Assembly: GCA_001296005.1 (NCBI GenBank)
Contig: LJHR01000004.1
Span: 177,403 to 241,402 of the forward strand
Direction: 5' to 3'
DNA length: 64,000 nt
Source of the DNA: an alpha proteobacterium AAP38
GTDB lineage: Bacteria > Pseudomonadota > Alphaproteobacteria > Azospirillales > Azospirillaceae
Each line of letters starts with the position of its first letter. Position 1 is the first letter of the stretch. The translations under genes were made by a program, and so were the position numbers. Positions 18,024 to 42,483 of this stretch are shown in pieces. The notes under the pieces are model-generated. The model was not told where the DNA came from. It was given only the letters and a program-made list of their open reading frames with translations, and made no database searches.

Positions 18024-18773
18024 TCAGTTCTGCGTCAGGCCCGCATCGACAATGAAGTTGGCACCCGTGCAGCCGGCACTTTCGTCCGATGCCAGGAACA
18101 GGGCCATGGCCGCCACATGATCTGCCGTCAGGCGGAATTTCAGGGCCTGCAGATCAATGAATTGCTGGTTCAGTTCCGGTGTCAACCACAGGGCTGCCTG
18201 ACGGTCGGTCAGGATGGCGCCCGGCACGATGCAGTTCACCCGCACACCCCCCGGCCCATATTCGCGGGCCAGCGTCCGGGTCAGGCCGTTGATGGCAGCC
18301 TTTGATGTCGTATAGCTGACCATGCCGGGCCGCCCGCGCATCCAGGAAATGCTGCCCAGCATGATGATCGCCCCCTGCCCGCGCGCCATCATGGCGGGGG
18401 CGACGGCCTGGCTGGCAAAGAACTGATGGTCAAGGTTAAGCGCCAGCATGCGCCGCCAGCTTTCGGGCTCGACCTCCCCCACCACCTGCCGGTCATCCTT
18501 GCCGGCATTGTTGATCAGGGCGTCGATTCCGCCGCTGAACTGTTCGATATCGGCGATGGCGGCGCGCAGGGCAGCAATATCGGTGATGTCGCAGGGCACG
18601 AAACGGGCACCGGTACGATCCGCCATGGCCGCCCCGACATTGGCGTCGATATCGATGAAGCTGACCCGTGCCCCCTGTGCCGCGAACGCCTCCACCATCG
18701 CCCCACCGATGCCCGATGCGCCGCCAGTGATCAGGACGGAACGGCCTTCCAGGCTGTGATAGCGCACATTCAT
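18024..18773 (-). CDS. SDR-family dehydrogenase, predicted sulfoquinovose 1-dehydrogenase
   Basis: 249-residue classical short-chain dehydrogenase. Cofactor motif 'TGGASGIGG' near residues 16-24, 'NNAG' at the end of strand 4, catalytic Ser in 'MLGSISW' and Y-x-x-x-K in 'SYTTSKAAINGLTRTLA'. In the sulfo-Entner-Doudoroff pathway of Pseudomonas putida SQ1, an SDR oxidises sulfoquinovose at C1 to 6-deoxy-6-sulfogluconolactone with NAD+. The assignment here is inference from the neighbours: lactonase, mutarotase, aldolase and dehydratase in the same operon, and sulfolactate genes opposite. Its start overlaps the lactonase stop by four bases (ATGA). On its own the family could oxidise many sugars. 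Confidence 0.75.
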   Translation of the reverse strand: MNVRYHSLEGRSVLITGGASGIGGAMVEAFAAQGARVSFIDIDANVGAAMADRTGARFVPCDITDIAALRAAIADIEQFSGGIDALINNAGKDDRQVVGEVEPESWRRMLALNLDHQFFASQAVAPAMMARGQGAIIMLGSISWMRGRPGMVSYTTSKAAINGLTRTLAREYGPGGVRVNCIVPGAILTDRQAALWLTPELNQQFIDLQALKFRLTADHVAAMALFLASDESAGCTGANFIVDAGLTQN

Positions 18774-19642
18774 GGCAGGCTCTCCGGGTTGCAGGGCGTA
18801 TTGGGTAGGCCAGGAACATCGACCGGCATGGCGAAAAGCGCGCCATCCATCGGCCCCTCAAAGCCGGCGGCGACGCTGGTGACATACAGGGTCTTGGCGT
18901 CCGGGCCACCAAAGCAGGGCATGGTGGGGCAGCGGGCCGGGGTGCGGTATTCCGCCATCAACCGCCCGTCAGGATCATAGCGCTGCACCCGCCCGCCCGC
19001 ATAAAGCGCGGTCCAGTAACAGCCATCCGCATCCACCGCCGCCCCGTCGGGACGGCCCCGGTCGGGGGCTTCAGGGTCCAGTTGCGCGAACAGCCGCTTG
19101 TTGGCGACCTGACCACTGGCCGGGTCGTAATCATAGGCATGGATGGCGAAACGCGGCGTGTCGGCATGGTACAGCGTGCGCCCATCGGGGGCGAAGGCCA
19201 GACCGTTGGAGGTCAGCAATCCGCCGAACAGCAGGCGCAGACCCGCCTTTTCCAACCGGTACAGGCCCCCGCGCGAACCGGATTTCGGTTCATCGATGGT
19301 CCCGATGATCAAATGGCCCGCCGGGTCGACACGGCCATCATTGAAGCGGGTATCGGCGGGATCGGTCGGGTTGGGCGCCAGCATCGGCCCCACCTTCCCA
19401 TCCGTATTCAGCTGATAGATACCCGTCCGCATCGCGGCGACATAGCCACCGCCGGCCAGCGGCACGACACACCCAGGATGTTCGGGAAGGTCCAGGCTGG
19501 ACAGGGCCCCATCGGCAGGGTGGTAGCGGTGAAGCAGCCGCCCGTGAATATCGACGAAGGACAGGATGCCCGCCCCCCCATCCCAGACGGGACATTCCCC
19601 CAGCCGGGTACGCAGGGGAAGCACAGGGGTAAATTCACTCAT
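18770..19642 (-). CDS. SMP-30/gluconolactonase family, predicted 6-deoxy-6-sulfogluconolactonase
   Basis: 290-residue six-bladed beta-propeller lactonase. Family signatures: 'LGECPVWD' (metal-binding Glu), 'RFNDGRVDPAGHLIIGT' (Asn/Asp ligands), 'SNGLAFAPDGRTLYHAD' and 'GRPDGAAVDADGCYW'. It would open the lactone made by the adjacent SDR to 6-deoxy-6-sulfogluconate. Four-base overlaps on both sides (with the SDR and the mutarotase) show tight translational coupling. The family is promiscuous (gluconolactone, xylonolactone, fuconolactone), so the sulfo-substrate is inferred from the cluster. Confidence 0.8.
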   Translation of the reverse strand: MSEFTPVLPLRTRLGECPVWDGGAGILSFVDIHGRLLHRYHPADGALSSLDLPEHPGCVVPLAGGGYVAAMRTGIYQLNTDGKVGPMLAPNPTDPADTRFNDGRVDPAGHLIIGTIDEPKSGSRGGLYRLEKAGLRLLFGGLLTSNGLAFAPDGRTLYHADTPRFAIHAYDYDPASGQVANKRLFAQLDPEAPDRGRPDGAAVDADGCYWTALYAGGRVQRYDPDGRLMAEYRTPARCPTMPCFGGPDAKTLYVTSVAAGFEGPMDGALFAMPVDVPGLPNTPCNPESLP

Positions 19643-20526
19643 GCCAAAGGCTCCGCATTGATGCGAACGGTCCCGGACAGGCTGGCACCAGGGGCCAGGA
19701 TGGCCATGGGCGGCAGTTCGGGCTGGTTCAGGGCATTGGCGCCGTGTGTCACCGGCTCCACCGCGAAAAAGTCACGGCCCGCCGGGGTATAGACGCGCAA
19801 GGTGCCGAAAATCCGGTCGGCCCGCAGACTGACCAACAGGCCGGGCACCGATCCCGTCATATGGGCGATGCCGGCCCAGCCGGGGAAATCACCATCCACG
19901 ACGCTGTCATCCAGGGGCCGGCCATGGCGGAAATCGGGGTCCGGTGGCATCACCACCTTATCCGGCAAGCCATCGGCCCCGCTGCGCCAGTAGGACAGGG
20001 ACGAAAAGCGCAGCATCGTCCCCGCAACCCGCCGGAAGAAGGGGTGCAGGCCCATGCCAGCCGGGGCCATGCCTTGGCTATCATTGGTCAGGTCCAGACC
20101 GATTTCCAGGCCTGTATCGTCCAGCCGGTACGCCATCCGCGCGGTGAAGGCATAGGGCCAGTCGTCCTGCCCATCCGTTGCCGGCTGATACGACAGACGC
20201 AGGCGGACATGGGTGTCGGATCGTTCATCCACCGCCCATTCACGCTGCCAACCCAGCCCATGCAGCGGGTGGGTGATATCGGGCGTGTTGCGCGGGACGT
20301 GGTGCCAACGACCGGCGAACAGAAAACGGCCATCGGCAATGCGGTTGGCATAGGGCAGCATGGGATAGCAGGCGGTGCGCCGCACCTGCCCGGTCGCCAC
20401 GGCATCGGCAGGCGTGGGCCGCATGATATCGGCACCATCACGCGACAGCGACACAAGCGCACCACCGATGGAGGGCGCCACTTCCGCCCGCATGCTGCCC
20501 GCCGCCAGGGTGATGATCGCCGCCAT
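19639..20526 (-). CDS. Aldose 1-epimerase family (predicted sulfoquinovose mutarotase)
   Basis: About 295-residue galactose-mutarotase-like protein. Visible are 'PYANRIADGRF' (substrate-binding Asn-Arg), 'HPLHGLGWQREW' (catalytic-type His) and 'GMGLHPFFRR' (second His). It would interconvert alpha and beta anomers of sulfoquinovose, matching the retaining glycosidase product to the dehydrogenase's preference; YihR-type mutarotases do this in other SQ loci. The start is placed at ATG 20526, two bases after the aldolase stop; the longer frame would run into the aldolase gene. Overlaps the lactonase start by four bases. Confidence 0.83.
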   Translation of the reverse strand: MAAIITLAAGSMRAEVAPSIGGALVSLSRDGADIMRPTPADAVATGQVRRTACYPMLPYANRIADGRFLFAGRWHHVPRNTPDITHPLHGLGWQREWAVDERSDTHVRLRLSYQPATDGQDDWPYAFTARMAYRLDDTGLEIGLDLTNDSQGMAPAGMGLHPFFRRVAGTMLRFSSLSYWRSGADGLPDKVVMPPDPDFRHGRPLDDSVVDGDFPGWAGIAHMTGSVPGLLVSLRADRIFGTLRVYTPAGRDFFAVEPVTHGANALNQPELPPMAILAPGASLSGTVRINAEPLA

Positions 20527-20528
20527 GG

Positions 20529-21332
20529 TCAATAGGGACCTGTGATGACCGGGGCCGTCGGTGCCTGTCCGCGCAGGGCCGCCTGCCATTCAACGGCGCG
20601 GCCCGTCATCATGGCGATGTCCGACGCCACGGCGGCGAAGCTGTAGCCGTAACCGACGAAGCGCCCCACCATCTCCGGGTTAGGCCCGACAATGCCGATG
20701 GGCTTGCCCGCCTGTTTGGCCAGGGTTGCGGCTTCCGCGATCTTGGCCTGCACCTCCTCGTGACCCACCTGTCCGATCAGACCCATGGCGGCCGACAGGT
20801 CGCCCGGCCCCAGGAACAGGGCGTCGACACCGGGCACGGCGGCGATGTCCGCCACGCGGGAGACGGCGCCCGGCGTTTCCAACTGCACGATGACAGCAAC
20901 CTCGTCATTGGCGCGCTTCAGATAATCGGGCACGCGGCCATAGCGTGACCCGCGATGCACCGCCGCCACCCCGCGCACGCCGTCGGGCGGATAGCGGGTA
21001 TAGGAGACGGCGGCCCGCGCCTCGTCTGCATTCTCCACAAAGGGCAGCATCACGGTACGGGCGCCGGCATCCATCACCCGCTTCACCAGCACCTGATCAT
21101 TCCAGGCCAGCCGCACGATGGCCTGTGCCGGCGTGCATTCGATGGCGCGCAGCAGATTGGCGAGATCCGGCATCTCAATGGGCACATGCTCCATATCTAC
21201 GACCAGGAAGTCGAAGCCGCAATGTCCCATCGCTTCCGCCGTGCTGGGCGCGCCCGACATCAGCCAGGTTCCCGTCAGCAGGCGGGACATGTCGGCCAAT
21301 TGCCGTTTCAGCGGATTCAGGGGTTCGTGCAT
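20529..21332 (-). CDS. HpcH/HpaI-family class II aldolase, predicted KDSG aldolase
   Basis: 267-residue metal-dependent aldolase of the 2-keto-3-deoxy-acid group. Motifs 'FDFLVVDMEHVPIE' and 'RLAWNDQVLVKRVMDAGARTVMLPFVE' supply the barrel and metal site, and 'ALFLGPGDLSAAMG' the C-terminal Asp. In the sulfo-ED route it splits 2-keto-3,6-dideoxy-6-sulfogluconate into pyruvate and (S)-3-sulfolactaldehyde. ATG 21332 is preferred to the TTG at 21344 because GAGGGA lies 6 bases upstream and overlaps the dehydratase stop. Relatives act on 2-keto-3-deoxy-glucarate or -rhamnonate, so that alternative is held open by family alone; the cluster argues for the sulfonated substrate. Confidence 0.8.
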   Translation of the reverse strand: MHEPLNPLKRQLADMSRLLTGTWLMSGAPSTAEAMGHCGFDFLVVDMEHVPIEMPDLANLLRAIECTPAQAIVRLAWNDQVLVKRVMDAGARTVMLPFVENADEARAAVSYTRYPPDGVRGVAAVHRGSRYGRVPDYLKRANDEVAVIVQLETPGAVSRVADIAAVPGVDALFLGPGDLSAAMGLIGQVGHEEVQAKIAEAATLAKQAGKPIGIVGPNPEMVGRFVGYGYSFAAVASDIAMMTGRAVEWQAALRGQAPTAPVITGPY

Positions 21333-21340
21333 CAGGTCCC

Positions 21341-23083
21341 TCAATAGATCGGCGGTTCCGGCACCTTGGCGGTACCGGCCAGGAAGTCGAAGTCGCAGCC
21401 TTGCGGCGCCTGGGTCACATGCGCCTTGTATAGGGCCGCGTAGGAGCGTTCATAGCTGTTTGCCGGCGGGGTCCAGGCGGCACGGCGGCGGGTCAGTTCA
21501 TCCTCATCGACCAGCATGTCCAGCGTGCCGGCCACGGCATCCAGCCGGATCAGGTCACCCGTCTGAACCAACGCCAGCGGGCCGCCCACCGCCGCCTCTG
21601 GTGCGGCATGCACGATGCAGGCACCGTAATGGGTGCCCGACATGCGGGCATCGGAAATGCGCACCATGTCGCGCACGCCCTGGGCCAGCAACTTCTTCGG
21701 GATGGGCAGATTGCCCCATTCCGGCATGCCGGGTGCACCCACCGGCCCACCATTGCGCAGGATGATGACGCTGTCAGCATCGACATCCAGGGCCGGATCG
21801 TCAATCGCGGCCAGCATCTGGGCGTTACTGTCGAAGACAATGGCCCGGCCTGTATGGCACAGCAGGCGGGGATCAGCCGCCGATGATTTCATCACCGCGC
21901 CATCGGGGCAGAGATTGCCACGCAGCAGCGCCAGGCTGGCCCCGCGTTCCAGCGGCACCACAGGGTTGGACACGTCGCGGATCACATCATCATCGTAACA
22001 TTCGGCCTCCGCGATCTCCTGCCCCAGCGTGCGGCCCGTCACTGTCAGGCATTCCAGCGACAGGTAGTCGCGCAGCTTCCACAGCAGGGCTCGCATCCCG
22101 CCGGCGAAGAAGAAATCCTCCATCAGGGCATTGCCCGACGGGAACAGGTTGGCGCAGACAGGGATGCGCCGCGCGGCGGCGGCCAGATCGTCGAGCGACA
22201 GGGCAACCCCCGCACGGCCTGCCAAGGCCATCATATGGACAGCGGCATTGGTGGACCCGCCCAGTGCCATATAGGCGACGACCCCATTCATGAAGGCATC
22301 GCGGGTCAGCATCCTCTGTGGCGTCAGGTCCTCATCCACCATCGCCACAATGCGTTCGCCACACAGGGACGCCATGCGGCGGTGACCGCTATCAACCGCC
22401 GGGATCGACGACGCACCGGGCAATGTCATGCCCATCGCGTCGGCGATGCCCGTCATGGTCGATGCCGTACCCATGGTATTGCAGGTGCCGATGGACCGCG
22501 TCATCCGCGATTCCAGGTCCAGCCAGTCGGCAGGCGTGATGTTTCCGGCACGCAGCTCATCCCAATACTTCTTGGTATGGGTACCCGCCCCCGTCTTGGT
22601 GCCGCGCCATTGCCCATTGGCCATCGGACCGGCGGGGCAATAGATCGCGGGCAGCCCAGCGCTGATCGCGCCCATCAGCAGCCCCGGCGTGGACTTGTCA
22701 CACCCGCCCAGCAGAACCGCCCCGTCGATGGGATGGGAGCGCAGAAGCTCCTCCACCTCCATGGCCAGAAAGTTGCGGTAGAGCATGGTGGTGGGCTTCA
22801 CCATCACCTCCCCCACGCTGAGCGCCGGCAGTTCAACCGGATAGCCGCCGGCCCGCAGCACGCCGCGCTTCACGGCCTCGGCCACATCACGCAGATGGAT
22901 GTGGCAGGGGCTCATCTCGCTCCAGGTGTTCACGATGGCGATCACCGGGCGGTCCATGAACTCTTCGCGCCGCAATCCCATCTGCTGCGTCCGCTGCCGA
23001 TGCGCGAAGCCGCGCATGTCGGGGGACGCGAACCAGCGGGCACTGCGCAAGGGGCGTTTCGGGTCGGATGGCGGGTTCGTCAT
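21341..23083 (-). CDS. IlvD/Edd-family dehydratase, predicted 6-deoxy-6-sulfogluconate dehydratase
   Basis: 580-residue Fe-S sugar-acid dehydratase. Cluster-ligand cysteines are seen at C60 ('SEMSPCHIHL'), C128 ('GGCDKSTPG') and C201 ('GTCNTMGTAST'), the pattern of the sugar-acid branch (arabinonate/xylonate dehydratase-like). It would convert 6-deoxy-6-sulfogluconate to the 2-keto-3-deoxy acid used by the next gene. First gene of the five-gene operon. The 14-bp operator lies only about 10-20 bases upstream of the ATG, overlapping its expected transcription start, and the ribosome site (GGTG) is weak. Substrate inferred from context. Confidence 0.83.
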   Translation of the reverse strand: MTNPPSDPKRPLRSARWFASPDMRGFAHRQRTQQMGLRREEFMDRPVIAIVNTWSEMSPCHIHLRDVAEAVKRGVLRAGGYPVELPALSVGEVMVKPTTMLYRNFLAMEVEELLRSHPIDGAVLLGGCDKSTPGLLMGAISAGLPAIYCPAGPMANGQWRGTKTGAGTHTKKYWDELRAGNITPADWLDLESRMTRSIGTCNTMGTASTMTGIADAMGMTLPGASSIPAVDSGHRRMASLCGERIVAMVDEDLTPQRMLTRDAFMNGVVAYMALGGSTNAAVHMMALAGRAGVALSLDDLAAAARRIPVCANLFPSGNALMEDFFFAGGMRALLWKLRDYLSLECLTVTGRTLGQEIAEAECYDDDVIRDVSNPVVPLERGASLALLRGNLCPDGAVMKSSAADPRLLCHTGRAIVFDSNAQMLAAIDDPALDVDADSVIILRNGGPVGAPGMPEWGNLPIPKKLLAQGVRDMVRISDARMSGTHYGACIVHAAPEAAVGGPLALVQTGDLIRLDAVAGTLDMLVDEDELTRRRAAWTPPANSYERSYAALYKAHVTQAPQGCDFDFLAGTAKVPEPPIY

Positions 23084-23091
23084 GTCACCAG

Positions 23092-23105
23092 CTCTTATAT
23101 AAGAC
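23092..23105. promoter_or_regulatory. Operator palindrome, site a (dehydratase promoter side)
   Basis: CTCTTATATAAGAC, 13 of 14 matches to the palindrome GTCTTATATAAGAC. It sits just upstream of the dehydratase ATG, where a bound GntR protein would block transcription or initiation of the sulfo-ED operon. The AT core could also overlap a -10 box. Confidence 0.8.
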
Positions 23106-23223
23106 CGCTGACAGAAGGGACGCTTTCCAGGGCAAAGTCAATGCGAAAATCGGCGGAATACCGCCATTCCTGAAAATCATCAAAAAGGTCCCTTGCCAAG
23201 AAGGCGACCTTGTGAACATATGT

Positions 23224-23237
23224 GTCTTATATAAGAC
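23224..23237. promoter_or_regulatory. Operator palindrome, site b (suy operon side)
   Basis: GTCTTATATAAGAC, a perfect 14-bp palindrome and the best copy in the window. It lies 46 bases upstream of the suyA GTG and 132 bases from site a, so the 200-base divergent region carries one operator per direction. Confidence 0.83.
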
Positions 23238-23283
23238 TTCAGACTTCCAGCGAACACCGCCAACGAACAAGGGGAGGCTCCAA

Positions 23284-23571
23284 GTGGGCGCACCACATCT
23301 TCTGGTCCATGACCGGCGCGACAATGTCGGCGTCGTGGTTGTGGAGGGGTTGAAAGCCGGCACCGACATGCTGTGCGTCGTGACCGAGGATAACAGCGAG
23401 TTCCGCACGGTCGTGAACCAGGATGTGCAGATCGGGCACAAGGTGGCGCTGCGCGATTTCGCGGTCGGCGACACCGTGATCAAGTATGGCGAGGATATTG
23501 GCAAGGTGGTGCAGCCCATCGAAAAGGGCGCCCATGTCCATACCCACAATCTGAAAACCAAGCGCTGGTAG
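23284..23571 (+). CDS. suyA: (2R)-sulfolactate sulfo-lyase, small subunit (SAF domain)
   Basis: 95-residue SAF-domain protein resembling the N-terminal part of altronate dehydratase, but encoded separately as in the SuyAB sulfo-lyase. Ends with the family motif '[14 protein letters not shown]'. With SuyB it splits (R)-sulfolactate to pyruvate and sulfite. The start is the GTG at 23284, with GGGGAGG 7-8 bases upstream; the frame is open further upstream but runs through the operator region and has no conserved sequence. First gene of the plus-strand lower-pathway operon; 13 bases from suyB. Single-chain UxaA and GarD are about 500 residues, so the split form itself supports SuyAB. Confidence 0.9.
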
Positions 23572-23584
23572 GGGAACCCGGATC

Positions 23585-24760
23585 ATGAATTACGCTGATC
23601 TCAAGATCTGGGGCTACCGCCGCGAAAATGGCCGCGTCGGTGTGCGCAATCATGTCGCCATCCTGCCGCTGGACGATATTTCCAACGCGGCGTGCGAGGC
23701 GGTGGCCGCCCATATCCAGGGCACCATCGCCCTGCCCCATTCCTATGGTCGCCTGCAGTTCGGCGCCGACCTGGACCTGCATTTCCGCACCATCATCGGT
23801 ACCGGCGCCAATCCCAATGTCGCGGCCTGTGTCGTGATCGGGATCGAGGAAGGCTGGACCCAGAAGGTGGTGGACGGTATCGCCGCCACGGGCAAGCCGG
23901 TCGCCGGTTTCTGGATCGAAGGCAATGGCGACATCGCCACCGTCGCCGCCGCCAGCCGCAAGGCCAAGGAATTCTCGCAATGGGCCTCTGAACGGGTCCG
24001 CACCGAATGCCCGCTGTCAGAGGTGTGGGTGGCGGCCAAGTGCGGGGAAAGCGACACGACCACGGGTCTGGCCTCCTGCCCCACCGTCGGCAACATGTAT
24101 GACAAGATGGTGGAACTGGGCCTCTATGGCTGCTTCGGTGAAACGTCGGAACTGACGGGGGCCGAACATCTGGCCGCCGCCCGCGCCGCCAGCCCGGAAG
24201 TGGCCGCCAAGTTCATGAAGACCTGGCAATCCTATCAGGATGACGTGATCGAGGCGCACAAGACGTCCGACCTGTCCGACAGCCAGCCGACCAAGGGCAA
24301 CATTGCCGGCGGCCTGACGACGATTGAGGAAAAGGCCCTGGGCAACCTGGAGAAGATCGGCAAGAAGACCAGCTATATCGACGTGCTGGAACCGGCGGAG
24401 GCACCGGCCAAGGGGCCGGGTCTCTACTTCATGGATACCTCTTCCGCCGCCGCCGAATGCTGCACGTTGCAGGCCGCCGCCGGCTATGTCGTCCATTGCT
24501 TCCCCACGGGTCAGGGCAATGTGATCGGCAACCCGATCATGCCGGTCATCAAGATCACTGGCAACCCGCGTACCGTGCGGTTGATGAGCGAGCATGTGGA
24601 CGTGGACGTGTCCGGCATTGTGCGCCGTGATATGACCATCGATCAGGCGGGCGACGCCTTGATCGACATGATCGCCCGAACCTCCAACGGTCGCCTGACA
24701 GCGGCGGAAGCCCTGGGGCATAAGGAGTTCGTGATGACCAAGCTGTACCGGTCGGCATGA
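23585..24760 (+). CDS. suyB: (2R)-sulfolactate sulfo-lyase, large subunit
   Basis: 391-residue UxaA-family protein. Hallmarks are '[19 protein letters not shown]' at the N-terminus, '[29 protein letters not shown]', the cysteine motif '[21 protein letters not shown]' and '[23 protein letters not shown]'. These give iron-dependent lyase chemistry, here expected to eliminate sulfite from (R)-3-sulfolactate. Its partner suyA is adjacent and comC overlaps its 3' end by four bases (ATGA). An altronate-type dehydratase is the main alternative; the sulfolactate dehydrogenases and UPF0324 exporter downstream argue against it. Confidence 0.9.
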
Positions 24761-25761
24761 GCACGGTTACGCTCAGCCTGGAAGAAGCACACCGTCTGGC
24801 AATGGGGGCGCTGGTAAAGGCCGGCGTTTCCCCAGCCAGTGCGGCGGCCACGGCGACCGCACTGGTGGCGGCGGAGGTGGATGGACAGGCCGGTCACGGC
24901 CTGTCCCGCGTCCCCTCCTACACGCTGCATGCGCGGGTCGGGAAGGTGGATGGCCTTGCCGTGCCGGTGGCCCTGGCGGCGGGAGAAGCCGGGGTTCGCA
25001 TTGATGCGGGCCATGGTTTTGCCTATCCCGCCGTCGATCTGGCCATTGAACGGCTGCTGCCGCTGGTGGCACGGACTGGTGTCGCTGCGGCAGCCGTCCA
25101 CCGTTCCCACCATTTCGGACAGGCCGGGCGGCATGTCGAACGGTTGGCCGAACAGGGGCTGGTAGCCTTTGCGTTTGCCAATACGCCGGCGGCCATGGCC
25201 CTGCCCGGCGGGCGGCGGTCGCTAATGGGCACCAACCCAATAGCCTTTGCCGCCCCCGTGCCGGGGCGGGCCCCACTGGTCATCGACATGGCCCTGTCGG
25301 TGGCGGCGCGCGGCAAGATCATGGCGGCATCCAAGGCCGGCAAGCCCATCCCCGAAGGCTGGGCCCTGGATGCCGATGGCAACCCGACCACGGATGCCAA
25401 GGCGGCACTGGCCGGATCGCTGCTGCCCATCGGCGGGGCCAAGGGGGCGGCCCTGGCGCTGATGATCGAGGTGATCTGCGCCGCCTTGGTCGGTGGCAAT
25501 TTCGGCTGGAACGCCAGCGGCTTCTTTGATGGCGATGGCGGCCCGCCCGACCTGGGCCAGTTGCTGATCGTGCTGGACCCGGCCCGTTTCGGTGGTGACG
25601 GCTATGCCGAGCACATGGCGCATCTGCTGCTGACGGTCGCCGGTGAGGCCCCGGCGCGTCTGCCGGGCGACCGGCGGCTGGCATTGCGGCAGAAGGCAGC
25701 GGCAGACGGGGTGACCATCCCGGCGGCCCTGCATGCAGAGATTTTGGGGCTGGTGGGGTAA
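24757..25761 (+). CDS. comC: LDH2/MDH2-family dehydrogenase, predicted (R)-sulfolactate dehydrogenase
   Basis: 334-residue NAD(P)-dependent 2-hydroxyacid dehydrogenase of the malate/L-sulfolactate family. Signature segments: '[19 protein letters not shown]', '[21 protein letters not shown]', '[14 protein letters not shown]' and '[22 protein letters not shown]'. In the SlcC-ComC couple this enzyme reduces sulfopyruvate to (R)-sulfolactate, the form used by SuyAB. Translationally coupled to suyB. Malate or lactate could be the substrate by family alone; its position between suyB and an S-specific partner makes sulfolactate far more likely. Confidence 0.85.
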
Positions 25762-25896
25762 CCCTCACCCTCCCATTGACCAGCGTCAATGGGCCCCTCC
25801 CTCTCCCACCTTCGTGGGCGAGGGGTTCAATTTCGCCCCTCGCCCGCCTAGCGGGAGAGGGAGGGGTCCAAGCCGGAAGGCTTGGGAGGGTGAGGG
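25762..25896. repeat. Nested palindromic intergenic element between comC and slcC
   Basis: Two perfect 14-bp inverted pairs are nested: outer arms at 25762-25775 and 25883-25896, inner arms at 25794-25807 and 25853-25866. A small hairpin (ATTGAC/GTCAAT, 25775-25790) lies between the left arms. The element starts at the first base after the comC stop and separates two genes of one operon. It resembles the purine/pyrimidine-rich dispersed palindromes common between genes in GC-rich Alphaproteobacteria. It could stabilise mRNA ends or attenuate downstream genes. Confidence 0.7.
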
Positions 25897-25931
25897 AGTA
25901 CCCCGCTCGAACACAATATCGAGAGGCAAAG

Positions 25932-27874: not shown

Positions 27875-27915
27875 ATTCTGAACGATATAAATAAAAATCA
27901 TCGGGAGGCAGAAAC

Positions 27916-29247: not shown

Positions 29248-29281
29248 GCGTATAAGGGACAGGCAAAGGGGAGGAACGACC

Positions 29282-33186: not shown

Positions 33187-33200
33187 GACTTATATAAGAT
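33187..33200. promoter_or_regulatory. Operator palindrome, site c (gntR promoter)
   Basis: GACTTATATAAGAT, 12 of 14 matches with the central ten bases CTTATATAAG intact. It lies 31 bases upstream of the GntR start codon, in the short gap between gntR and the end of the aldehyde dehydrogenase gene, and is consistent with autoregulation. Confidence 0.75.
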
Positions 33201-34736: not shown

Positions 34737-34809
34737 CTCCGGTCTTCCTTCTTCCGTGTGGCGGGCGTCGCGGCGCCCCATAATCGGGCTGGACGAGTAT
34801 CTATTCTAA

Positions 34810-34823
34810 CTCTTATATAAGAT
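34810..34823. promoter_or_regulatory. Operator palindrome, site d1
   Basis: CTCTTATATAAGAT, 12 of 14 matches with the CTTATATAAG core. Located between the divergent aldehyde dehydrogenase (start 34736) and TonB receptor (start 34913), so one site can serve both. Confidence 0.77.
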
Positions 34824-34846: not shown

Positions 34847-34912
34847 CATGCGGTAGGAATGATGCAACCCCGCCAACAAGGGGAGCCGACAATTGAACAG
34901 GGAGGAAATGAC

Positions 34913-37219
34913 ATGCAGCATGCAAAGCATCTGAGACGGCTTGCGGCCGGCACTGCCATGGCGGTGATGGGCCTGTCCGGCTCCGCCGTCGCGCAGAACA
35001 GTGCCGATGGTGGCTTTCTTCTGGAAGAAATCATCGTCACGGCCCAAAAGCGCGTCCAGAACCTGCAGGACGTGCCCGTCGCCATCAGCGTCGTGACCGG
35101 CGATCAGCTGGAACAGGCCAACATTAATTCCGCAGAACAGCTGTTCCAGCGCGTACCGACCATCACGTTCCGCAAGGGCAACACCAACAAGGATAGCGCC
35201 ATCTCCATCCGCGGTGTGGGCACGATCTCCTTCGCGTCGGGTGTGGAGCCGTCGGTTTCGACCGTCATTGACGGCGTCGTCTATGCGCGCGCCGGTCAGC
35301 AGACGGCCGACTTCCTGGACCTGGAACGGGTTGAAGTGCTGCGCGGTCCGCAGGGTTCGATCTTCGGCAAGAATGCATCGGCCGGTGTGGTGAACATCAC
35401 CACCCGCGCGCCCTCCTCCACGCCCAAGGGCTTTGCCGAGGCATCATACTATGAGGGCAACGAGTACCGCCTGAAGGCCGGCGTCTCCGGCCCCCTGTCG
35501 GACAAGCTGTCCGGCCTGGTCACAGGTTTCTTCAGCCATTTCGATGGAAACGGCAAGAACGTGTTCAATGGCCATGACGTCAACGGCTATGAACGCTATG
35601 GCGCGCGCATGAAGCTGGTGCTGGATGCCACGGAGAATGTGACATTCACGGCCATCGCCGATTATGCCAAGGGCAACGACAATGGCTATGCCGACAGCAT
35701 CGGCACGGTTTTCCCCGGCGCCTATCAGGACCAGATTTTCAAGCCCTCGCTGGCCCCGCTGATGCCGGGGGCCAAGAACAAGGATATCGACAACGATCTG
35801 GACCCCAAGACGCGGGACAAGAATTCCGGCGTCTCCTTGCAGGCCGATATCGACCTGGGCACGGCTGCCATCACCTCCATCACCGCCTACCGCCACTGGT
35901 ACAATTATCAGCAGCGTGACGGTGACTTCCGTTCCGACGCACCGCTTTACGTCGCCACCGGTGCGGCGGGCAGCGATGTCCGCTCCCACGACCGGGGCGA
36001 CCTGAGCTTTGATCAGTTCACGCAGGAACTGCGCATCGCCTCCACGGGACAGAACTTCATCGATTACGTGGCCGGCGTTTACTACTACACCACAAAGGAA
36101 GTGGACTTCTTCAACCGTACTGTCACGGCCTGTACCGCGACCACCCTGGCGGCGGTCAACGGGTTGCTGCCCTGCCGGGCCGGCGCATCGACCTTCACCA
36201 CCAATGAAGGCAATGCCGATTTCACGACCAAGCTGAAGAACTACGCGGCCTTCGGCCAGGCGACGGTCAATTTCACAGATGATTTCCGCGCCATCCTGGG
36301 CGGTCGCTATACGGAGGACAAGGTGTCCTTCGACTTCGCCCGCCGTTCCACCTCCACCGCCGCCTTCCCCGGTGTGCGTCCGGCCTTCGCCGCCAGCGGC
36401 ACCACCAAGCAGGATGGCATCTCCGGCAATGCCGGCCTTCAGTATGATTTCGCCGACGACATCATCGGCTATGCGACATATACCCGTGGCTATAAGGGTC
36501 CGGCGCTGAATGTCTTCTTCAACATGGTGGGCACCGACACGCTGCCCATCTCGGAAGAAACGTCCAACGCCTATGAAGCCGGCCTGAAGACCCGCTTCCC
36601 CGAGGCGGGCCTGATGCTGAACTTGGCCGCCTTCAAGACCGTCTATGACGGGTACCAGGCCAACAATCTGGAACTGGTGGCCGGACAGGTGGTGACCCGC
36701 CTGACCAATGCCGGTTCGGTGTCGACCCGTGGTCTGGAAGCCGACTTTACCTGGGCCGCCAGCCGCGACCTGGAATTCAATGGAGGCGTTTCCTACACCA
36801 AGGCCCGCATCGACAAGTTCAAGTGCCCGACCACCAACCCGACCTGCGCCGACGCCATCAACGGCAAACGCTTGCCCTTCTCCGCCAAATGGAAAGGATC
36901 GGTCACGGCTGACTGGCGCCTGCCGGTGGAACTGCCCAATGGTGATCTGAACCTGTCCAACACGGTACAGTTCACGTCCAAGCAGGGCTTCGACATCAAC
37001 CAGAACCCCAACGCGGTCCAGAGCGGTTACTCCACATGGGATGCGGTCCTGGCCTGGACGTCGGATGATGACATGTATCGTCTGTCGCTGGTCGCCAAGA
37101 ACATCACCGACAAGCAGTATGTGATCCTGCGTATTCCGAACGGCACCGCCTTCATGCGCCAGATCACGCCGCGCGACGCCGAGCGTTATTTCGGTGCCTC
37201 CGCCCGGGTCAATTTCTGA
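34913..37219 (+). CDS. TonB-dependent outer-membrane receptor of the SQ regulon
   Basis: 768-residue receptor with signal peptide (KHLRRLAAGTAMAVMGLSGSAVAQ), TonB-box-like 'FLLEEIIVTAQKRVQNLQDVPVAI', plug motif 'VEVLRGPQGSIFGKNASAGVVNI' and a full beta barrel ending in the expected terminal Phe ('ASARVNF'). The start at 34913 follows GGAGGA by 6-7 bases; an ATG at 34859 would add an unconserved leader. It has its own promoter with operator sites d1/d2 and a strong terminator, so it forms a single-gene unit. Its regulation suggests it imports sulfoquinovosyl glycerol, SQ or a sulfolipid fragment; no ligand can be read from sequence. Confidence 0.92.
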   Translation: MQHAKHLRRLAAGTAMAVMGLSGSAVAQNSADGGFLLEEIIVTAQKRVQNLQDVPVAISVVTGDQLEQANINSAEQLFQRVPTITFRKGNTNKDSAISIRGVGTISFASGVEPSVSTVIDGVVYARAGQQTADFLDLERVEVLRGPQGSIFGKNASAGVVNITTRAPSSTPKGFAEASYYEGNEYRLKAGVSGPLSDKLSGLVTGFFSHFDGNGKNVFNGHDVNGYERYGARMKLVLDATENVTFTAIADYAKGNDNGYADSIGTVFPGAYQDQIFKPSLAPLMPGAKNKDIDNDLDPKTRDKNSGVSLQADIDLGTAAITSITAYRHWYNYQQRDGDFRSDAPLYVATGAAGSDVRSHDRGDLSFDQFTQELRIASTGQNFIDYVAGVYYYTTKEVDFFNRTVTACTATTLAAVNGLLPCRAGASTFTTNEGNADFTTKLKNYAAFGQATVNFTDDFRAILGGRYTEDKVSFDFARRSTSTAAFPGVRPAFAASGTTKQDGISGNAGLQYDFADDIIGYATYTRGYKGPALNVFFNMVGTDTLPISEETSNAYEAGLKTRFPEAGLMLNLAAFKTVYDGYQANNLELVAGQVVTRLTNAGSVSTRGLEADFTWAASRDLEFNGGVSYTKARIDKFKCPTTNPTCADAINGKRLPFSAKWKGSVTADWRLPVELPNGDLNLSNTVQFTSKQGFDINQNPNAVQSGYSTWDAVLAWTSDDDMYRLSLVAKNITDKQYVILRIPNGTAFMRQITPRDAERYFGASARVNF

Positions 37220-37253
37220 TCCGGGGTTCAGTCCCAACAATATGCCTTCTCCA

Positions 37254-37288: not shown

Positions 37289-37289
37289 A

Positions 37290-38915
37290 TCAGCGTTGGG
37301 CGATCATGGTCCGCAATACCTTCTTGTCGATCTTGCCCGTCGCGCCCAGCGGCATGGCGGGTACGAACATCACATCGTCGGGGATCTGCCATTTCGACAG
37401 GCGTCCCTGAAAATGCGCCAGGAATTCCGCCGCCGTGGCATCCATGTCCGGCTTCAACTGTACCACCAGCAGCGGGCGTTCATCCCATTTCGGATCGGGG
37501 ATGGCGATAGCGGCACATAGGGCGGCCTTGGGGTGGCTGGAGGCGATATTCTCGATCTCCAGCGAACTGATCCATTCACCCCCGGATTTGATGACATCCT
37601 TGGCCCGGTCCGCGATGCGCATGAAACCGTAGCCATCGATATCGGCAATGTCGCCCGTATCGAACCATCCATCCGCATCCAGCACCTGTCCGCCATCGCC
37701 ATGCAGATAGCCGCCAGCCACCACGGGGCCGCGAACCTGCAGACGGCCCATCTGCTGCCCGTCATGGGGCAGACAGGCACCGTCCTGTCCGCGCAGGGCC
37801 AGATCGATGCCGAGTGGCGGGCGGCCCTGGCGGATGCGATACGGCATCTGTTCATCAAAACCCGCTCCGGCCAGTTCGGGCACCAGCTTGAAATGCGTGC
37901 CGATGGGGGAGGTTTCGGTCATGCCCCAGGCGTGGCGCGCCTCCACCCCATAATCATGCAGCCGGCGCAGCACCGCTTCGGGACAGGCGGCACCGCCGAT
38001 GATGACCCGTCGCAGCGGCCCGAAATCGCCGCCATGGCGTTCCAGATGCTGAATGATAGCCTGCCAGATGGTGGGAACGGCAGCGGCAAAGGTCACCCCC
38101 TGCCCGTGGATCAGTTCCAAGAGGGAGGCCGGGTCCAGCCGCGATCCCGGCAGCACCAGCTTGCACCCCACCGCCGCCGTGGACAACGGAATGCCCCAGG
38201 CATTGGCGTGGTACATGGGCACGATGGGCAGGGCCACATCGCACACCGACAGTCCCATGACATCGGGCTGCAACGTCATCCACATATGGATCATGGTAGA
38301 GCGATGGGAGTAAAGCACGCCCTTGGGGTTGCCCGTGGTGCCGGAGGTGTAGCAAAGGGCCGCCGCCTGCCGTTCATCGAAGTCCCCCCAGGGGCGCCCG
38401 TCATGGTTATGCACGGCGATCCAGTCCTGATAAGCGATGGCCTGTGGCAGCAGGGCGCGGTCTACATCCCCTTCCCCACACAACAGAACCACGTGAGTAA
38501 CGGTGGGGCAGTCGGGCAGCAGATCCGCCACCAGGCCGGCAAAGACCGGATCGGCCAGAATCACGCGGTCGCCGGCATGATTGATGATGAAACGCAGCTG
38601 ATCCTTGAACAGGCGCGGGTTCAGGGTGTGGCAGACGGCCCCCATGCCCATGATGGCGAACCATGCCTCCAGATGCCGGTCGCTGTTCCAGGCCAGTGTC
38701 GCCACCCGGTCACCCAGCCCCACGCCCAGTCCGCGTAGGGCCGTGGTCAGGCGGCGGGCACGGGCGCGCAGGCTGGTATAATCCGTAACGGACAGGGCAC
38801 CTTCCGCCGACACCTCCACCCGCCGCGACACCACGGGTCGTGCCCCGTCCCAGCGCGCGGCATGATCGATGATCTGGTTCACGGTCAGCGGCCAGTCCTG
38901 CATCAGCCCGAACAT
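37290..38915 (-). CDS. Fatty-acid/acyl-CoA synthetase (AMP-forming) of the SQ regulon
   Basis: 541-residue adenylate-forming ligase. Core motifs: P-loop '[20 protein letters not shown]', 'GMTETSPIG', '[36 protein letters not shown]' and the C-terminal lysine in '[10 protein letters not shown]'. Family members activate medium- or long-chain fatty acids as CoA thioesters. Its start faces the sulfoquinovosidase gene across operator site e, so it probably shares control with it. That suggests use of acyl chains removed from sulfolipid, but no lipase sits beside it. The chain length and the lipid link are inference. Confidence 0.88.
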
Positions 38916-38987
38916 GCGTTCCTCCCTATGCTTTTCGCCCTCATTTCCTCATTCCCAACCCGATGGCTGGACAGGGCGATGCCTTAA

Positions 38988-39001
38988 GTCTTATATTAGA
39001 C
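38988..39001. promoter_or_regulatory. Operator palindrome, site e
   Basis: GTCTTATATTAGAC, 13 of 14 matches. Centred in the 163-base divergent gap: 73 bases from the acyl-CoA synthetase start and 78 bases from the sulfoquinovosidase start. A further TAAGAG half-site follows directly. Confidence 0.78.
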
Positions 39002-39078
39002 ATAAGAGTATGGATAAATAGAAAGCCAGACGCCGGGCGCACCCCGCCGCGCATGGACTATTGAGGGAAGGGAACGAC

Positions 39079-41103
39079 ATGCAATTGGTTGAGACGGATG
39101 GCGGCTTCGACCTGATCCTGGCAGGTCGCGCGATGCTGCGCCACCGGTCCGATGCGCCCTGCCTCTATGTCGGCCGGGGCGACCCGCGCGTGGAGATGTA
39201 TCATGGCCACTTCGATATTGAGGATAATATCGAGGAGCGGGTGGGCCTGCGCCACGCGACCCTGACACGTGACAGTGATGGCAACGCCCGCATCGCCCTG
39301 TCCATCGCCCCTTCCCTGCCGCCGTTGGTCACCCTTTCACTGTCCGGCGGCGCGCAGGATGCCCGTATCCGTATTGATGCCATGGATGACAGCCTGAACC
39401 GCCTGTGGCTGCGGGTGGTGGCAGAAAAGGGCGAGCATGTCTGGGGTGGTGGCGAACAGCTCTCCTATTTCGACATGCGCGGCCGCCGCTTCCCGCTCTG
39501 GACGTCGGAACCCGGCGTGGGGCGGGATAAATCCACCCTGCTGACCTTCCAGTCCGATCAGAAGGGCAAGGCCGGCGGCGACTATTATAAAACCAACTAT
39601 CCACAACCGACATACCTCTCATCGCGCCGCTACGCCCTGCATATCGACACCAAAGCCTATAGCGCCTTCGATTTCCGCCAGGAGGGCTGGCATGAGCTGG
39701 AGATCTGGGCGGCACCGGCGACCATTGAACTATGGGCCCGCGATGCCTTCACCGATCTGGTGACGGCCATGTCCGACCGGTTCGGGCGGCAGCCACCCCT
39801 GCCGGACTGGGTGCTGAAAGGTGCCATCGTGGGGTTGAAGGATGGGGCGAAAAGCTTCGAACGGCTGGAGAAATATGCCGCGTCGGGCGCCGCCCTGTCG
39901 GGCCTGTGGTGCGAGGATTGGGTGGGCTTGCGCATCACCAGCTTTGGCAGCCGCCTGTTCTGGGACTGGAAATGGAACGCCACGCGCTATCCGGGCCTGG
40001 ATACGAAGATCAAGGAACTGCACGAACGCGGCATCCGCTTCCTGGGCTATGTGAACCCCTATCTCTGCGTTGATGGCAGCTTCTTCCCGGAAGCGGAGGC
40101 CGCCGGATATCTGGCAAAGAAGCTGGACAGTGACGAGACCTATACGGTCGATTTCGGGGAATTCGATTGCGGCGTGGTGGATTTCACCAACCCCGCCGCC
40201 GCCGAATGGTTTGCCGAACGGGTGATCGGGCAGAATATGCTGGATTTCGGCCTATCCGGCTGGATGGCGGATTTCGGGGAGTATCTGCCGACCGATGTCC
40301 GGCTGCACGACGGCACGCCCGGCATGCTGGCCCATAATGCCTGGCCCGTGCTGTGGGCGGAGGTGAACGCCCGTGCCGTGGCCAGCCGGGGCAAGACAGG
40401 CGAGGCATTGTTCTTCATGCGCGCCGGCTATAGCGGGGTGCAGCGCCATTGCCCGTTGCTGTGGGCAGGCGACCAGTCGGTGGATTTCAGCCGGCATGAC
40501 GGCATCGGCACGGTCATCACGGCGGCCCTGTCATCGGGCCTGCTAGGCAATGCCTATCACCACAGCGATATCGGCGGGTACACCAGCCTGTTCGGCAATG
40601 TCCGCACGCCGGAACTGATCATGCGCTGGTCGGAAATGGCCGCCTTCACCGCCGTAATGCGCGGGCATGAGGGCAACCGCCCGCGTGAGAATGTGCAGAT
40701 CGACGAGGATGAACAGGTCCTGGCGCATTTTGCCCGCATGACCCGCCTCTATGTCCATATGGCGCCCTATCTGCGGTCCCTGTCGGAAGAGGCGGTGGCG
40801 ACGGGCCTGCCGGTGCAGCGGCCACTGTTCCTCCATTTCCCCGACGATCCCGCGACCTTTGCCCTACAGGAAAGCTATCTGTACGGAGCCGACCTGCTGG
40901 TTGCGCCAGTCATTCAGCCGGGCGTTGACCGGTGGAGCACCTACTTGCCAGCCGACACTGAATGGGTGGAGGTCTGGACCGGCAGCGTGCATGCCGGTGG
41001 GCAGAGTGTGACGGTGGATGCGCCGCTGGGCAAGCCGCCACTGTTCTATCGCCAGGGCAGCGCATGGAAGACGCTGTTCGCGGGCATTGCGGCGGTGACC
41101 TGA
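39079..41103 (+). CDS. yihQ: GH31 sulfoquinovosidase (KERW type)
   Basis: 674-residue retaining alpha-glycoside hydrolase that cuts sulfoquinovosyl glycerol to SQ and glycerol. The nucleophile D398 is in 'GWMADFGEYLPTD' and the acid/base D465 in 'WAGDQSVDFS'. Sulfonate-recognising positions known from E. coli YihQ (Q262, Q288, R301, W304, Y508) correspond to K254 ('VGLKDG'), E279 ('WCEDW'), R292 and W295 ('FGSRLFW') and Y501 ('DIGGYT'). This is the KERW fingerprint of the Agrobacterium-type enzymes. D398, D465 and Y501 are all offset by exactly seven from E. coli. No signal peptide, so cytoplasmic. ATG 39079 has GGGAAGGG upstream. Confidence 0.95.
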   Translation: MQLVETDGGFDLILAGRAMLRHRSDAPCLYVGRGDPRVEMYHGHFDIEDNIEERVGLRHATLTRDSDGNARIALSIAPSLPPLVTLSLSGGAQDARIRIDAMDDSLNRLWLRVVAEKGEHVWGGGEQLSYFDMRGRRFPLWTSEPGVGRDKSTLLTFQSDQKGKAGGDYYKTNYPQPTYLSSRRYALHIDTKAYSAFDFRQEGWHELEIWAAPATIELWARDAFTDLVTAMSDRFGRQPPLPDWVLKGAIVGLKDGAKSFERLEKYAASGAALSGLWCEDWVGLRITSFGSRLFWDWKWNATRYPGLDTKIKELHERGIRFLGYVNPYLCVDGSFFPEAEAAGYLAKKLDSDETYTVDFGEFDCGVVDFTNPAAAEWFAERVIGQNMLDFGLSGWMADFGEYLPTDVRLHDGTPGMLAHNAWPVLWAEVNARAVASRGKTGEALFFMRAGYSGVQRHCPLLWAGDQSVDFSRHDGIGTVITAALSSGLLGNAYHHSDIGGYTSLFGNVRTPELIMRWSEMAAFTAVMRGHEGNRPRENVQIDEDEQVLAHFARMTRLYVHMAPYLRSLSEEAVATGLPVQRPLFLHFPDDPATFALQESYLYGADLLVAPVIQPGVDRWSTYLPADTEWVEVWTGSVHAGGQSVTVDAPLGKPPLFYRQGSAWKTLFAGIAAVT

Positions 41104-41130
41104 GTAACCGCGATCCTTGATTCCCAACAT

Positions 41131-41218
41131 GCCTTCCCCGCGAAGGCGGGGCCCCAGGGGCAAAAAGCCCGACCGTTGCATCAGACGGCCCCTGGACCCC
41201 CGCTTTCGCGGAGGAAGC
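41131..41218. repeat. Long imperfect inverted repeat between sulfoquinovosidase and MFS genes
   Basis: Arms of about 31 bases (41131-41161 and 41188-41218) pair with few mismatches; the left arm itself contains the hairpin CCCCGCGAAGGCGGGG-like sequence. This is the look of dispersed palindromic repeats of Alphaproteobacteria and may also limit read-through or stabilise the upstream mRNA. No T-tract. Confidence 0.7.
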
Positions 41219-41259
41219 AGTAAAATGCGAATTCAATCTTCATTCCAAGGTGAAACCCC

Positions 41260-42483
41260 ATGCGTTTCGGCATTCACCGCACCCTGCTGCTGGCGCTCGT
41301 CATGATGGCGGGTATCCTGAATTACACGGACCGGCAGATCATCGCCGTGCTGAAACCCATGCTGGAAAAGGAACTGGGGTGGAGCGATGCCGATTACGGC
41401 ACCCTGGTTGCCATGTTTCAGGGGGCGGCGGCCGTCGCCTTCGTCTTTGCCGGCTGGATGATCGACCGCATGGGCTGGCGCGTCGGCAATCCCGCTGCGG
41501 TCGGTTCATGGAGCCTGGCCGCCATCGTCCATGGCATGGCGACAACCCTGACGGAGTTCAAGCTGGTGCGGGTGGCCCTGGGTGCGACCGAGGCTTTGGG
41601 CACCCCGGCGGCCATCAAGACCGTCTCCGTCTGGTTTCAGGCCAATGAACGGTCGCTGGCGCTGGGTTTCGTGAACGCGGCGGGGAATATCGGGGCCATC
41701 ATCGCACCCCTGCTGGTGCCCGTCATCGCGCTGTCTTATGGCTGGCGGTGGGCCTTCTACATCATGGGTGGACTGGGGCTGGTGTGGGTTGTCGCCTGGT
41801 GGGCGCTGACCCGCCTGCCCTATTTCCAGACACCCCCGACCCCTGTCGCCGTCACGGGCGGGGCCAAGGTGTCCTGGGGTCAGGTCCTGACAGACCGCCG
41901 CACCTGGGCCTTTGCCGGGGCGAAGGTGTTTTCCGATCAGGTCTGGTGGTTTCTCTTGATGTGGATGCCCGACCTGTTCACCCGTGTTTTCGGGCTGGAC
42001 ATGCGCAGCTTCGGCGTACCGCTGGCCACCATCTACGCCATCGCCGCCTTCGGGTCGTTGGCCGGCGGCTATGTGTCGGGCCGCATGCTGGCGGCGGGGA
42101 TGAGCATCAACCGCGCACGCAAGCTGACCCTGCTGATCTGCGCCCTGCTGGTTCTGCCGGTGCCGCTGGTGCTGCTGGTGCAGAATTACTGGCTGGCCGT
42201 GGCGCTGCTGGGCCTGACCTTGGCCGCCCATCAGGGTTTCTCCGTCAACCTGTTCGCCACCGCCACCGACATCATACCGCAAGGCCGGATCGCGACCGTC
42301 ATTTCCATCGGGGCGCTGTGTGGCAATCTGGCGGGCATGGCGGTGCTGCAAGCCGCCGGCTGGGTGCTGGCGACGGGCGGGTCCTATTCCCCCATGTTCG
42401 CGCTGGTGTCGGTGTCCTACCTGCTGGCACTGGGCTGGCTGCATCTGCTGCAACCGGTGCTGAAGCCGGCGGAGGCCGCTTAA
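41260..42483 (+). CDS. MFS transporter, ACS/ExuT-like, predicted SQ or SQ-glycerol importer
   Basis: 407-residue, about 12-helix permease of the anion:cation symporter branch, which contains hexuronate and sugar-acid carriers. Motifs: 'GILNYTDRQIIAVLKPMLEKEL', 'GWMIDRMGWRVGNPAA' and 'ALGATEALGTPAAIKTVSVWF'. AAGGTG precedes the start. It directly follows the sulfoquinovosidase gene and would be co-transcribed unless the inverted repeat stops transcription, so uptake of the anionic SQ-glycoside across the inner membrane is a good guess. It is convergent with the FGGY kinase gene, with only four bases between stops. Confidence 0.87.
   Translation: MRFGIHRTLLLALVMMAGILNYTDRQIIAVLKPMLEKELGWSDADYGTLVAMFQGAAAVAFVFAGWMIDRMGWRVGNPAAVGSWSLAAIVHGMATTLTEFKLVRVALGATEALGTPAAIKTVSVWFQANERSLALGFVNAAGNIGAIIAPLLVPVIALSYGWRWAFYIMGGLGLVWVVAWWALTRLPYFQTPPTPVAVTGGAKVSWGQVLTDRRTWAFAGAKVFSDQVWWFLLMWMPDLFTRVFGLDMRSFGVPLATIYAIAAFGSLAGGYVSGRMLAAGMSINRARKLTLLICALLVLPVPLVLLVQNYWLAVALLGLTLAAHQGFSVNLFATATDIIPQGRIATVISIGALCGNLAGMAVLQAAGWVLATGGSYSPMFALVSVSYLLALGWLHLLQPVLKPAEAA

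Follow-up and report, generated by a model that had tools for sequence, protein, structure and literature searches.

Organisation of the locus

Positions 18024-42483 of a 64,000-nucleotide stretch of Niveispirillum DNA (contig LJHR01000004.1 of assembly GCA_001296005.1; the whole stretch is called the window below) hold a gene cluster predicted to mineralise sulfoquinovose (SQ), in which a sulfo-Entner-Doudoroff (sulfo-ED) pathway stands beside genes for sulfolactate desulfonation. SQ is a plant sulfosugar and among the most abundant organosulfur compounds, and its full breakdown is usually credited to two cooperating species. An original prediction, made from the sequence of the window, had named the gene families and their order in this interval, and all of them were found as intact open reading frames (ORFs).

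The sulfo-ED run reads leftward on the minus strand from 23083 to 18024 and encodes an IlvD/Edd dehydratase (21341-23083; predicted sulfogluconate dehydratase), an HpcH/HpaI aldolase (20529-21332; predicted 2-keto-3,6-dideoxy-6-sulfogluconate (KDSG) aldolase), an aldose 1-epimerase (19639-20526; predicted SQ mutarotase, a family match below the cut-off), an SMP-30-like lactonase (18770-19642; predicted sulfogluconolactonase) and a short-chain dehydrogenase/reductase (SDR; 18024-18773) assigned as SQ dehydrogenase (SQDH). Head to head with it, a run on the plus strand extends rightward from 23284 to 32352 and consists of suyA (23284-23571), suyB for the large subunit of (R)-sulfolactate sulfo-lyase (23585-24760), a comC-like gene (24757-25761; predicted (R)-sulfolactate dehydrogenase), an slcC-like gene (25932-26858; predicted (S)-sulfolactate dehydrogenase), suyZ (26855-27874; a UPF0324/YeiH-type predicted sulfite exporter, matching TIGR00698 below its cut-off), a gene for a major facilitator superfamily (MFS) transporter (27916-29247), glpK (29282-30784) and glpD (30787-32352). 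Beyond these, a GntR/UTRA regulator gene (gntR, 32440-33156) and a GabD/SSADH-type aldehyde dehydrogenase gene (33285-34781; predicted sulfolactaldehyde (SLA) dehydrogenase by family match) are read leftward from the minus strand, while the genes for a TonB-dependent receptor (34859-37219; predicted uptake, family match), a GH31 sulfoquinovosidase (39079-41103) and a second MFS transporter (41260-42483; predicted inner-membrane uptake, family match) are read rightward from the plus strand. An acyl-CoA ligase gene on the minus strand (37290-38915) is oriented to the left, away from the promoter region of the divergent sulfoquinovosidase gene; this ligase and the MFS transporter within the suy operon were absent from the original list, as were the five palindromes described next. 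Start codons were reassigned from the sequence for suyA (GTG at 23284), slcC (25932) and the sulfoquinovosidase (39079).

A palindrome, TCTTATATAAGA, recurs between these genes. Exact copies lie beside the start of the sulfo-ED operon (23093-23104), upstream of suyA (23225-23236) and between the SLA dehydrogenase and TonB receptor genes (34811-34822), and copies with one mismatch lie upstream of gntR (33188-33199) and between the acyl-CoA ligase and sulfoquinovosidase genes (38989-39000). The whole cluster is part of a 37.3-kb island (18010-55319), the right part of which (42488-55319) is cargo without the palindrome.

Assignment of the enzymes

The sugar half was compared with characterised enzymes and with the surroundings of related SQDH genes; an SQDH alignment scan of named genome records returned 244 relatives, the best 80 loci of which were compared. 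The best match of the SDR in the PDB is the P. putida SQ dehydrogenase 9gwu (300 bits vs 220 for the next chain), and the two proteins share 145 identical residues over 245 aligned positions. The SDR keeps all ten alignable SQ-dehydrogenase residues (D45, D99, R101, N119, S147, R152, R154, Y160, K164, Q198), the eleventh residue compared (260) having fallen beyond the aligned stretch; PMC12133307 assigns active-site roles to these residues, with R152 and R154 at the sulfonate and a catalytic tetrad among them. The same protein is 96% identical to one named N. cyanobacteriorum, a species whose plasmid record gives cyanobacterial aggregates of Lake Taihu as its origin. Dehydratase homologs occur near SQDH in 71 of the 80 loci and are 70-81% identical outside the genus. 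The aldolase is assigned to HpcH/HpaI at the family level only and has homologs in 71/80 loci. None of the NCBIfam models matches the lactonase, homologs of which lie near SQDH in 71/80. Mutarotase homologs flank 18 of the 18 loci that also carry SuyB and 18 of the 62 others, and aldehyde dehydrogenase homologs, 51-58% identical, are found at 26 of the 80. The GH31 enzyme has its best PDB matches in the sulfoquinovosidase chains 5ohy and 5ohs (1040-1042 bits), which we take to be AtSQase, and it keeps K245, E270, R283, W286, D455 and Y491, which in the numbering we assume are presumably the residues of sulfonate recognition. A sulfoquinovosidase homolog flanks 69/80 SQDH loci.

The original prediction had proposed a comparison with characterised sulfo-ED and Suy enzymes, and the desulfonation half was compared with three sulfolactate clusters: SuyB is 77%, 73% and 68% identical to the proteins of Methylobacterium oryzae, Paracoccus versutus and Cupriavidus pinatubonensis, respectively, and SuyA is 51-71% identical to its counterparts in the same three genera. 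SuyB identities fall from 60% to below 40% past the SuyB group among the 40 of 58 plasmid records listed. The M. oryzae suyAB cluster contains genes whose products are 55% identical to ComC and 66% identical to SlcC, and the suyZ product is 50% identical to that of the gene which follows suyB in P. versutus; only family and neighbourhood underlie the assignments of ComC, SlcC and the aldehyde dehydrogenase. GlpK clears the equivalog cut-off of TIGR01311, the family match of GlpD (PRK12266, 283.6 bits) stays under its cut-off of 360, and a glycerol kinase near sulfo-ED genes is also seen in clusters without SuyB (14/62). For uptake, TonB receptor homologs flank 6 of the 18 loci with SuyB and homologs of the downstream MFS transporter flank 11 of them; no ABC transporter gene was present among the ORFs scanned in 18024-42483.

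Distribution of the tandem arrangement

SuyB is encoded in the flanks of 18 of the 80 SQDH loci (tandem loci) and is missing from those of the remaining 62. By title, the tandem loci belong to metagenome-assembled genomes (MAGs) of Niveispirillum (1), Caulobacteraceae (2), Gammaproteobacteria (5) and organisms labelled only "Proteobacteria" (10). At the thresholds used, dehydratase and aldolase, like the mutarotase, are present in 18/18, lactonase and ComC in 17 each, and SlcC and GntR in 15 each, while SuyA and ComC, like SuyB, occur in the flanks of 0 of the 62 non-tandem loci. In two tandem loci (L054 and L057) the order is suyB-comC-slcC-dehydratase-aldolase-mutarotase-lactonase-SQDH, all on one strand. 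A gntR gene was found in three of the 62 non-tandem loci (L035, L044 and L065), whose contigs stop short of the suy position. The SQDH tree groups the window with all 18 tandem loci and these three contig-end loci as a single set of 22 rows (support 91/78), and this set minus its two Niveispirillum rows is well supported (100/92). An unlinked SuyB is encoded elsewhere in 11 of the 38 non-tandem genomes tested, that of L044 included. The original prediction had called the combination uncommon; this agrees with its presence in 18 of the best 80 loci, yet the combination is not unique and its halves also co-occur unlinked.

Other loci of the comparison depart from this arrangement in several ways. 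Two Elstera litoralis loci (L012, L014) have SQDH, dehydratase, aldolase and sulfoquinovosidase genes with no above-threshold lactonase in the flanks, in agreement with PMC13372026, which suggests Elstera clusters that lack a lactonase. Loci of Jiella and Aurantimonas (L041, L043, L060) have SQDH and sulfoquinovosidase genes, but their flanks contain neither an IlvD dehydratase gene nor an aldolase gene; each has one near-palindrome TCTTATAAAAGA, and SuyB is encoded elsewhere in both genomes tested, those of L041 and L060. In Palleronia aestuarii (L074) sulfo-ED genes stand beside slcC and suyZ homologs and no genomic SuyB is found at E<=1e-100, which perhaps indicates a different fate of sulfopyruvate.

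A shared palindrome and its candidate regulator

In the 5.78-Mb assembly of 62 contigs, exact copies of TCTTATATAAGA number three, all in the cluster, and with up to one mismatch there are six genomic sites, five of them in the cluster. Among the 80 loci, the palindrome (<=1 mismatch) is present in 18/18 tandem loci, 2/3 contig-end loci and 3/59 others, while a control scan with the reversed pattern gave 0 loci in the tandem group and 0 among the others. The tandem loci hold 30 palindrome sites vs a mean of 0.05 and a maximum of 1 in 20 first-order simulations, and every divergent gap between suyB and dehydratase genes contains the palindrome at <=2 mismatches (16/16). The co-regulation of the two halves suggested by the original prediction gains sequence support from these palindromes. 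TCTTATATAAGA is predicted to serve as operator for the GntR protein encoded in the cluster, close homologs of which carry PF00392 and PF07702. Close homologs are also found under the names Sphingosinicella microcystinivorans (74%) and Caulobacter sp. KR2-114 (70%), and the surroundings of their genes could hold the cluster in additional isolates.

The palindrome is also found in sulfolactate clusters. In M. oryzae two exact copies of TCTTATATAAGA lie upstream of suyA in a cluster that holds a 50% identical GntR, and in P. versutus a single 1-mismatch copy lies between suyA and the gene for a 39% identical GntR. SuyB was found in 34 of 385 sampled genomes of the class Alphaproteobacteria. Among 28 SuyB loci of Alphaproteobacteria outside the genus, of 3.0-4.2 kb each, a GntR gene stands beside suyA in four, and exactly those four carry the palindrome. 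In the window gntR is 9 kb away from suyA, and its GntR-UTRA product belongs to a suy cluster with palindromes at its promoters; the name suyR appears in PMC6018796, in the excerpt without a tie to the GntR family. Because the palindrome also precedes suyA in sulfolactate clusters carrying a related GntR, the regulator and operator probably belong to the Suy module; the sugar half seems to have been captured by this module. A further case is the suyAB region of Sinorhizobium mexicanum, a species counted among the sulfofucose-type clusters in PMC12421959, where an MR/MLE dehydratase, an SDR, ABC genes and a GntR/UTRA gene are present and exact TCTTATATAAGA copies precede both the aldolase gene and suyA. 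We infer that sugar pathways were placed under the regulator and operator of the sulfolactate module more than once.

A presence/absence island in the genus

A sister genome (G005, L160) shows an empty site, where only 12 bp separate the sequences matching window positions 12866-18009 and 55320-60166. Because these flanks adjoin in this way, 18010-55319 is a presence/absence segment of 37.3 kb. SuyB is present in three of the 11 genomes of the genus, that of the window included, and window positions 1-63998 are colinear with one of these (G006) in five blocks of 90.6-91.9% identity. In the third (G007), the contig with the cluster matches the window from 18014 onward only, and the AraC gene found at the island border in the window sits on another contig without the island; a contamination of 5% is listed for this genome. 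The simpler reading is that the island was gained by transfer, although a loss may have occurred instead. Since the window is colinear with G006 and the tandem arrangement recurs in 18/80 loci, the layout exceeds chance. Among the three suyB-bearing Niveispirillum genomes, SuyB is 99-100% identical and the neighbouring SQDH 95-96%. The segments that do not align to G006 (25748-25921, 41103-41255 and 47403-47967) are perhaps small repeat elements.

A proposed route within one cell and its alternatives

The original prediction of a sulfo-ED pathway joined to sulfolactate desulfonation and glycerol salvage is supported by gene families, gene order, the SQ-type dehydratase and the kept SQ-dehydrogenase residues. 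Because the predicted sulfo-ED and Suy genes stand head to head, both beside TCTTATATAAGA, it is likely, as judged from the sequence, that the island lets one cell import sulfoquinovosyl glycerol and gain from it two pyruvates and, from the glycerol, a triose phosphate, with sulfite as the other product. Each reaction and transport step of this route is a prediction. The TonB receptor and MFS transporter would import the substrate, from which the sulfoquinovosidase would free SQ and glycerol. Mutarotase, SQDH, lactonase, dehydratase and aldolase would then yield pyruvate and (S)-sulfolactaldehyde, to be oxidised by the aldehyde dehydrogenase to (S)-sulfolactate, which SlcC and ComC would invert via sulfopyruvate to (R)-sulfolactate. 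SuyAB would release sulfite and a second pyruvate, SuyZ would export the sulfite, and GlpK and GlpD would use the freed glycerol. GntR is the probable repressor of both halves, to be released by a sulfonate intermediate.

Several observations weigh against this reading. The top NCBIfam model for ComC is L-sulfolactate dehydrogenase, at 194 bits far under the 500-bit cut-off, and ComC scores 219 bits to a piperideine-carboxylate reductase structure vs 140 to L-sulfolactate dehydrogenase; the closest NCBIfam models for SlcC are those of phosphoglycerate dehydrogenase (PGDH), below the cut-off, and the aldehyde dehydrogenase is indistinguishable by sequence from succinate-semialdehyde dehydrogenase. 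No clear SorA-type sulfite dehydrogenase is present among the ORFs listed at one of two genomic PF00174 matches. Every tandem locus stems from a MAG (18/18), these loci are relatives and not independent, so that Fisher values computed on them are only descriptive, and the 22-row SQDH set lacks strong support. Genome-wide, a reversed control pattern has nine occurrences per strand at <=1 mismatch, so that a single near-match is not rare and the clustering of the palindromes, not their number, is the evidence. Four of the 15 gntR-bearing tandem loci (L010, L016, L054, L057) have no palindrome (<=2 mismatches) in the 350 bp that precede gntR, the contig-end member L035 has none at <=1 mismatch, and on the suyAB plasmid of C. 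pinatubonensis the only site has 2 mismatches, with no GntR annotated beside suyA.

The two modules may share a neighbourhood and a regulator while serving separate substrates, with sulfo-ED exporting sulfolactate from SQ and Suy scavenging the sulfolactate of neighbours. Suy clusters without nearby sulfo-ED genes do exist (some judged within 3.0-4.2 kb only), and most sulfo-ED loci (62/80) lack a neighbouring SuyB. We nevertheless regard this as unlikely, given that palindromes in the shared promoter region adjoin both halves, that L054 and L057 hold both halves in one same-strand run and that the S-to-R pair SlcC/ComC sits with SuyAB, which fits an (S)-sulfolactate derived from sulfo-ED (PMC12421959, PMC9594981). 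It is highly improbable that the substrate of the sugar half is a different sulfosugar, for instance the sulfofucose used by Paracoccus wurundjeri, where the same tandem logic and the same SuyAB/SlcC/ComC set are found and to which the sulfofucose-type set beside suyAB in S. mexicanum, with the same palindrome, could be added. The dehydratase of the window is of the IlvD type and not PF13378/PF02746, as given for the sulfofucose route in PMC12421959, the SQ-dehydrogenase residues are kept in the SDR, and a GH31 sulfoquinovosidase is present, the E. coli and Agrobacterium enzymes of this kind being reported as inactive on a sulfofucoside (PMC12421959). Least credible of all is a sugar half for ordinary sugars of the xylose or arabinose type with an incidental position beside suyAB: the top curated labels are D-xylose 1-dehydrogenase for the SDR (below cut-off) and L-arabinonate dehydratase for the dehydratase (above cut-off), but R152 and R154 are kept, sulfoquinovosidase homologs flank most SQDH loci, and the dehydratases of the Microvirga and Shinella plasmid sulfo-ED clusters, which adjoin an annotated alpha-glucosidase in the sulfoquinovosidase position, carry the same label.

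Relation to known pathways

Sulfo-ED ends in an excreted C3 sulfonate (PMC9594981, PMC13372026, PMC12890257), and reviews describe sulfoglycolytic bacteria as leaving the sulfonate to a second species (PMC9594981, PMC12890257). With the known pathway the window shares the SDR, a predicted lactonase, the IlvD dehydratase, an aldolase of the HpaI type, a dehydrogenase of the GabD family and the sulfoquinovosidase, as well as the glycerol genes of some clusters; whereas that pathway ends in excreted sulfolactate, the window adds SuyAB, SlcC, ComC, SuyZ and the shared palindrome, a gene content that argues against sulfolactate as the excreted end product. Its TonB and MFS genes stand where the Microvirga and Shinella clusters have ABC systems.

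A close precedent is the tandem sulfofucolytic-sulfolactate sulfolyase pathway of Paracoccus wurundjeri Merri (PMC12421959, mBio 2025), where the presence of both halves in one bacterium is termed unusual. Common to both are an ED-type sugar half and SlcC/ComC/SuyAB in one cluster and the release of sulfite, which is predicted for the window. P. wurundjeri differs in its use of sulfofucose, an MR/MLE-type dehydratase and an ABC transporter, with no SLA dehydrogenase confirmed, in contrast to the SQ-type set with IlvD and TonB/MFS genes described here. For Ensifer sp. HO-A22, two clusters led to the prediction that a single organism converts SQ completely to sulfite (PMC10599462, Chem Sci 2023); SuyB has no match at E<=1e-100 in the Ensifer oleiphilus HO-A22 genome (L071/G087), which its name suggests to be that of the same strain. 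The sulfo-ASMO and sulfo-ASDO pathways also allow one organism to use all SQ carbons with release of sulfite, but their oxygenase cuts the C-S bond first to give glucose (PMC12890257), while in the window sulfur is predicted to be lost last, via a lyase. No description of a linked SQ-type version was found among the papers listed in searches of the open full-text literature, subscription papers lying outside those searches. The cluster is an uncommon, conserved arrangement of ordinary enzymes, apparently jointly controlled.

Neighbouring genes

Three further genes were considered as parts of the system and set aside. The alpha/beta hydrolase at 16113-17210 was rejected as a sulfolipase of the system: its gene falls beyond the left boundary of the island (18010), no palindrome is near it, and at the thresholds applied none of the 80 loci has a homolog of it in the flanks. 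The acyl-CoA ligase faces a palindrome, yet it is found in the flanks of 0/80 loci and is retained as an accessory lead only. The PhyH-type dioxygenase gene within the island (52639-53403, minus strand), considered as an SQ dioxygenase, has weak PDB matches only, and this role is not claimed; it is 66-71% identical to genes adjoining the MFS gene in the tandem loci L030 and L072. The cargo begins on the minus strand with genes for an FGGY kinase, an FAD-linked oxidase and a second GlpD-like protein (42488-46897); farther on, 48508-49557 encodes a fatty acid hydroxylase and 50106-51509 an aldehyde dehydrogenase. Together these genes are possibly another glycerol-lipid route. Outside the island, a luciferase-like monooxygenase gene (PF00296; 7274-8422, minus strand) stands next to a LacI gene.

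Implications

A wider reading, to which we give even odds, is that a portable desulfonation module with its GntR and TCTTATATAAGA captured sulfosugar pathways at least twice, once of the SQ-type sulfo-ED (in a clade that spans Niveispirillum, Caulobacteraceae and Gammaproteobacteria) and once of the sulfofucose type (S. mexicanum), and that each capture resulted in mineralisation by one cell, switched on by a C3 sulfonate and not by the sugar. The linked cluster occurs in a genus with named, cultured species and its candidate operator and regulator span classes, which makes mineralisation by one cell directly testable, and SQDH, SuyB and TCTTATATAAGA together provide a sequence handle for spotting such organisms in environmental data. 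If the wider reading is true, each capture would have converted a two-species food chain to mineralisation in one cell.

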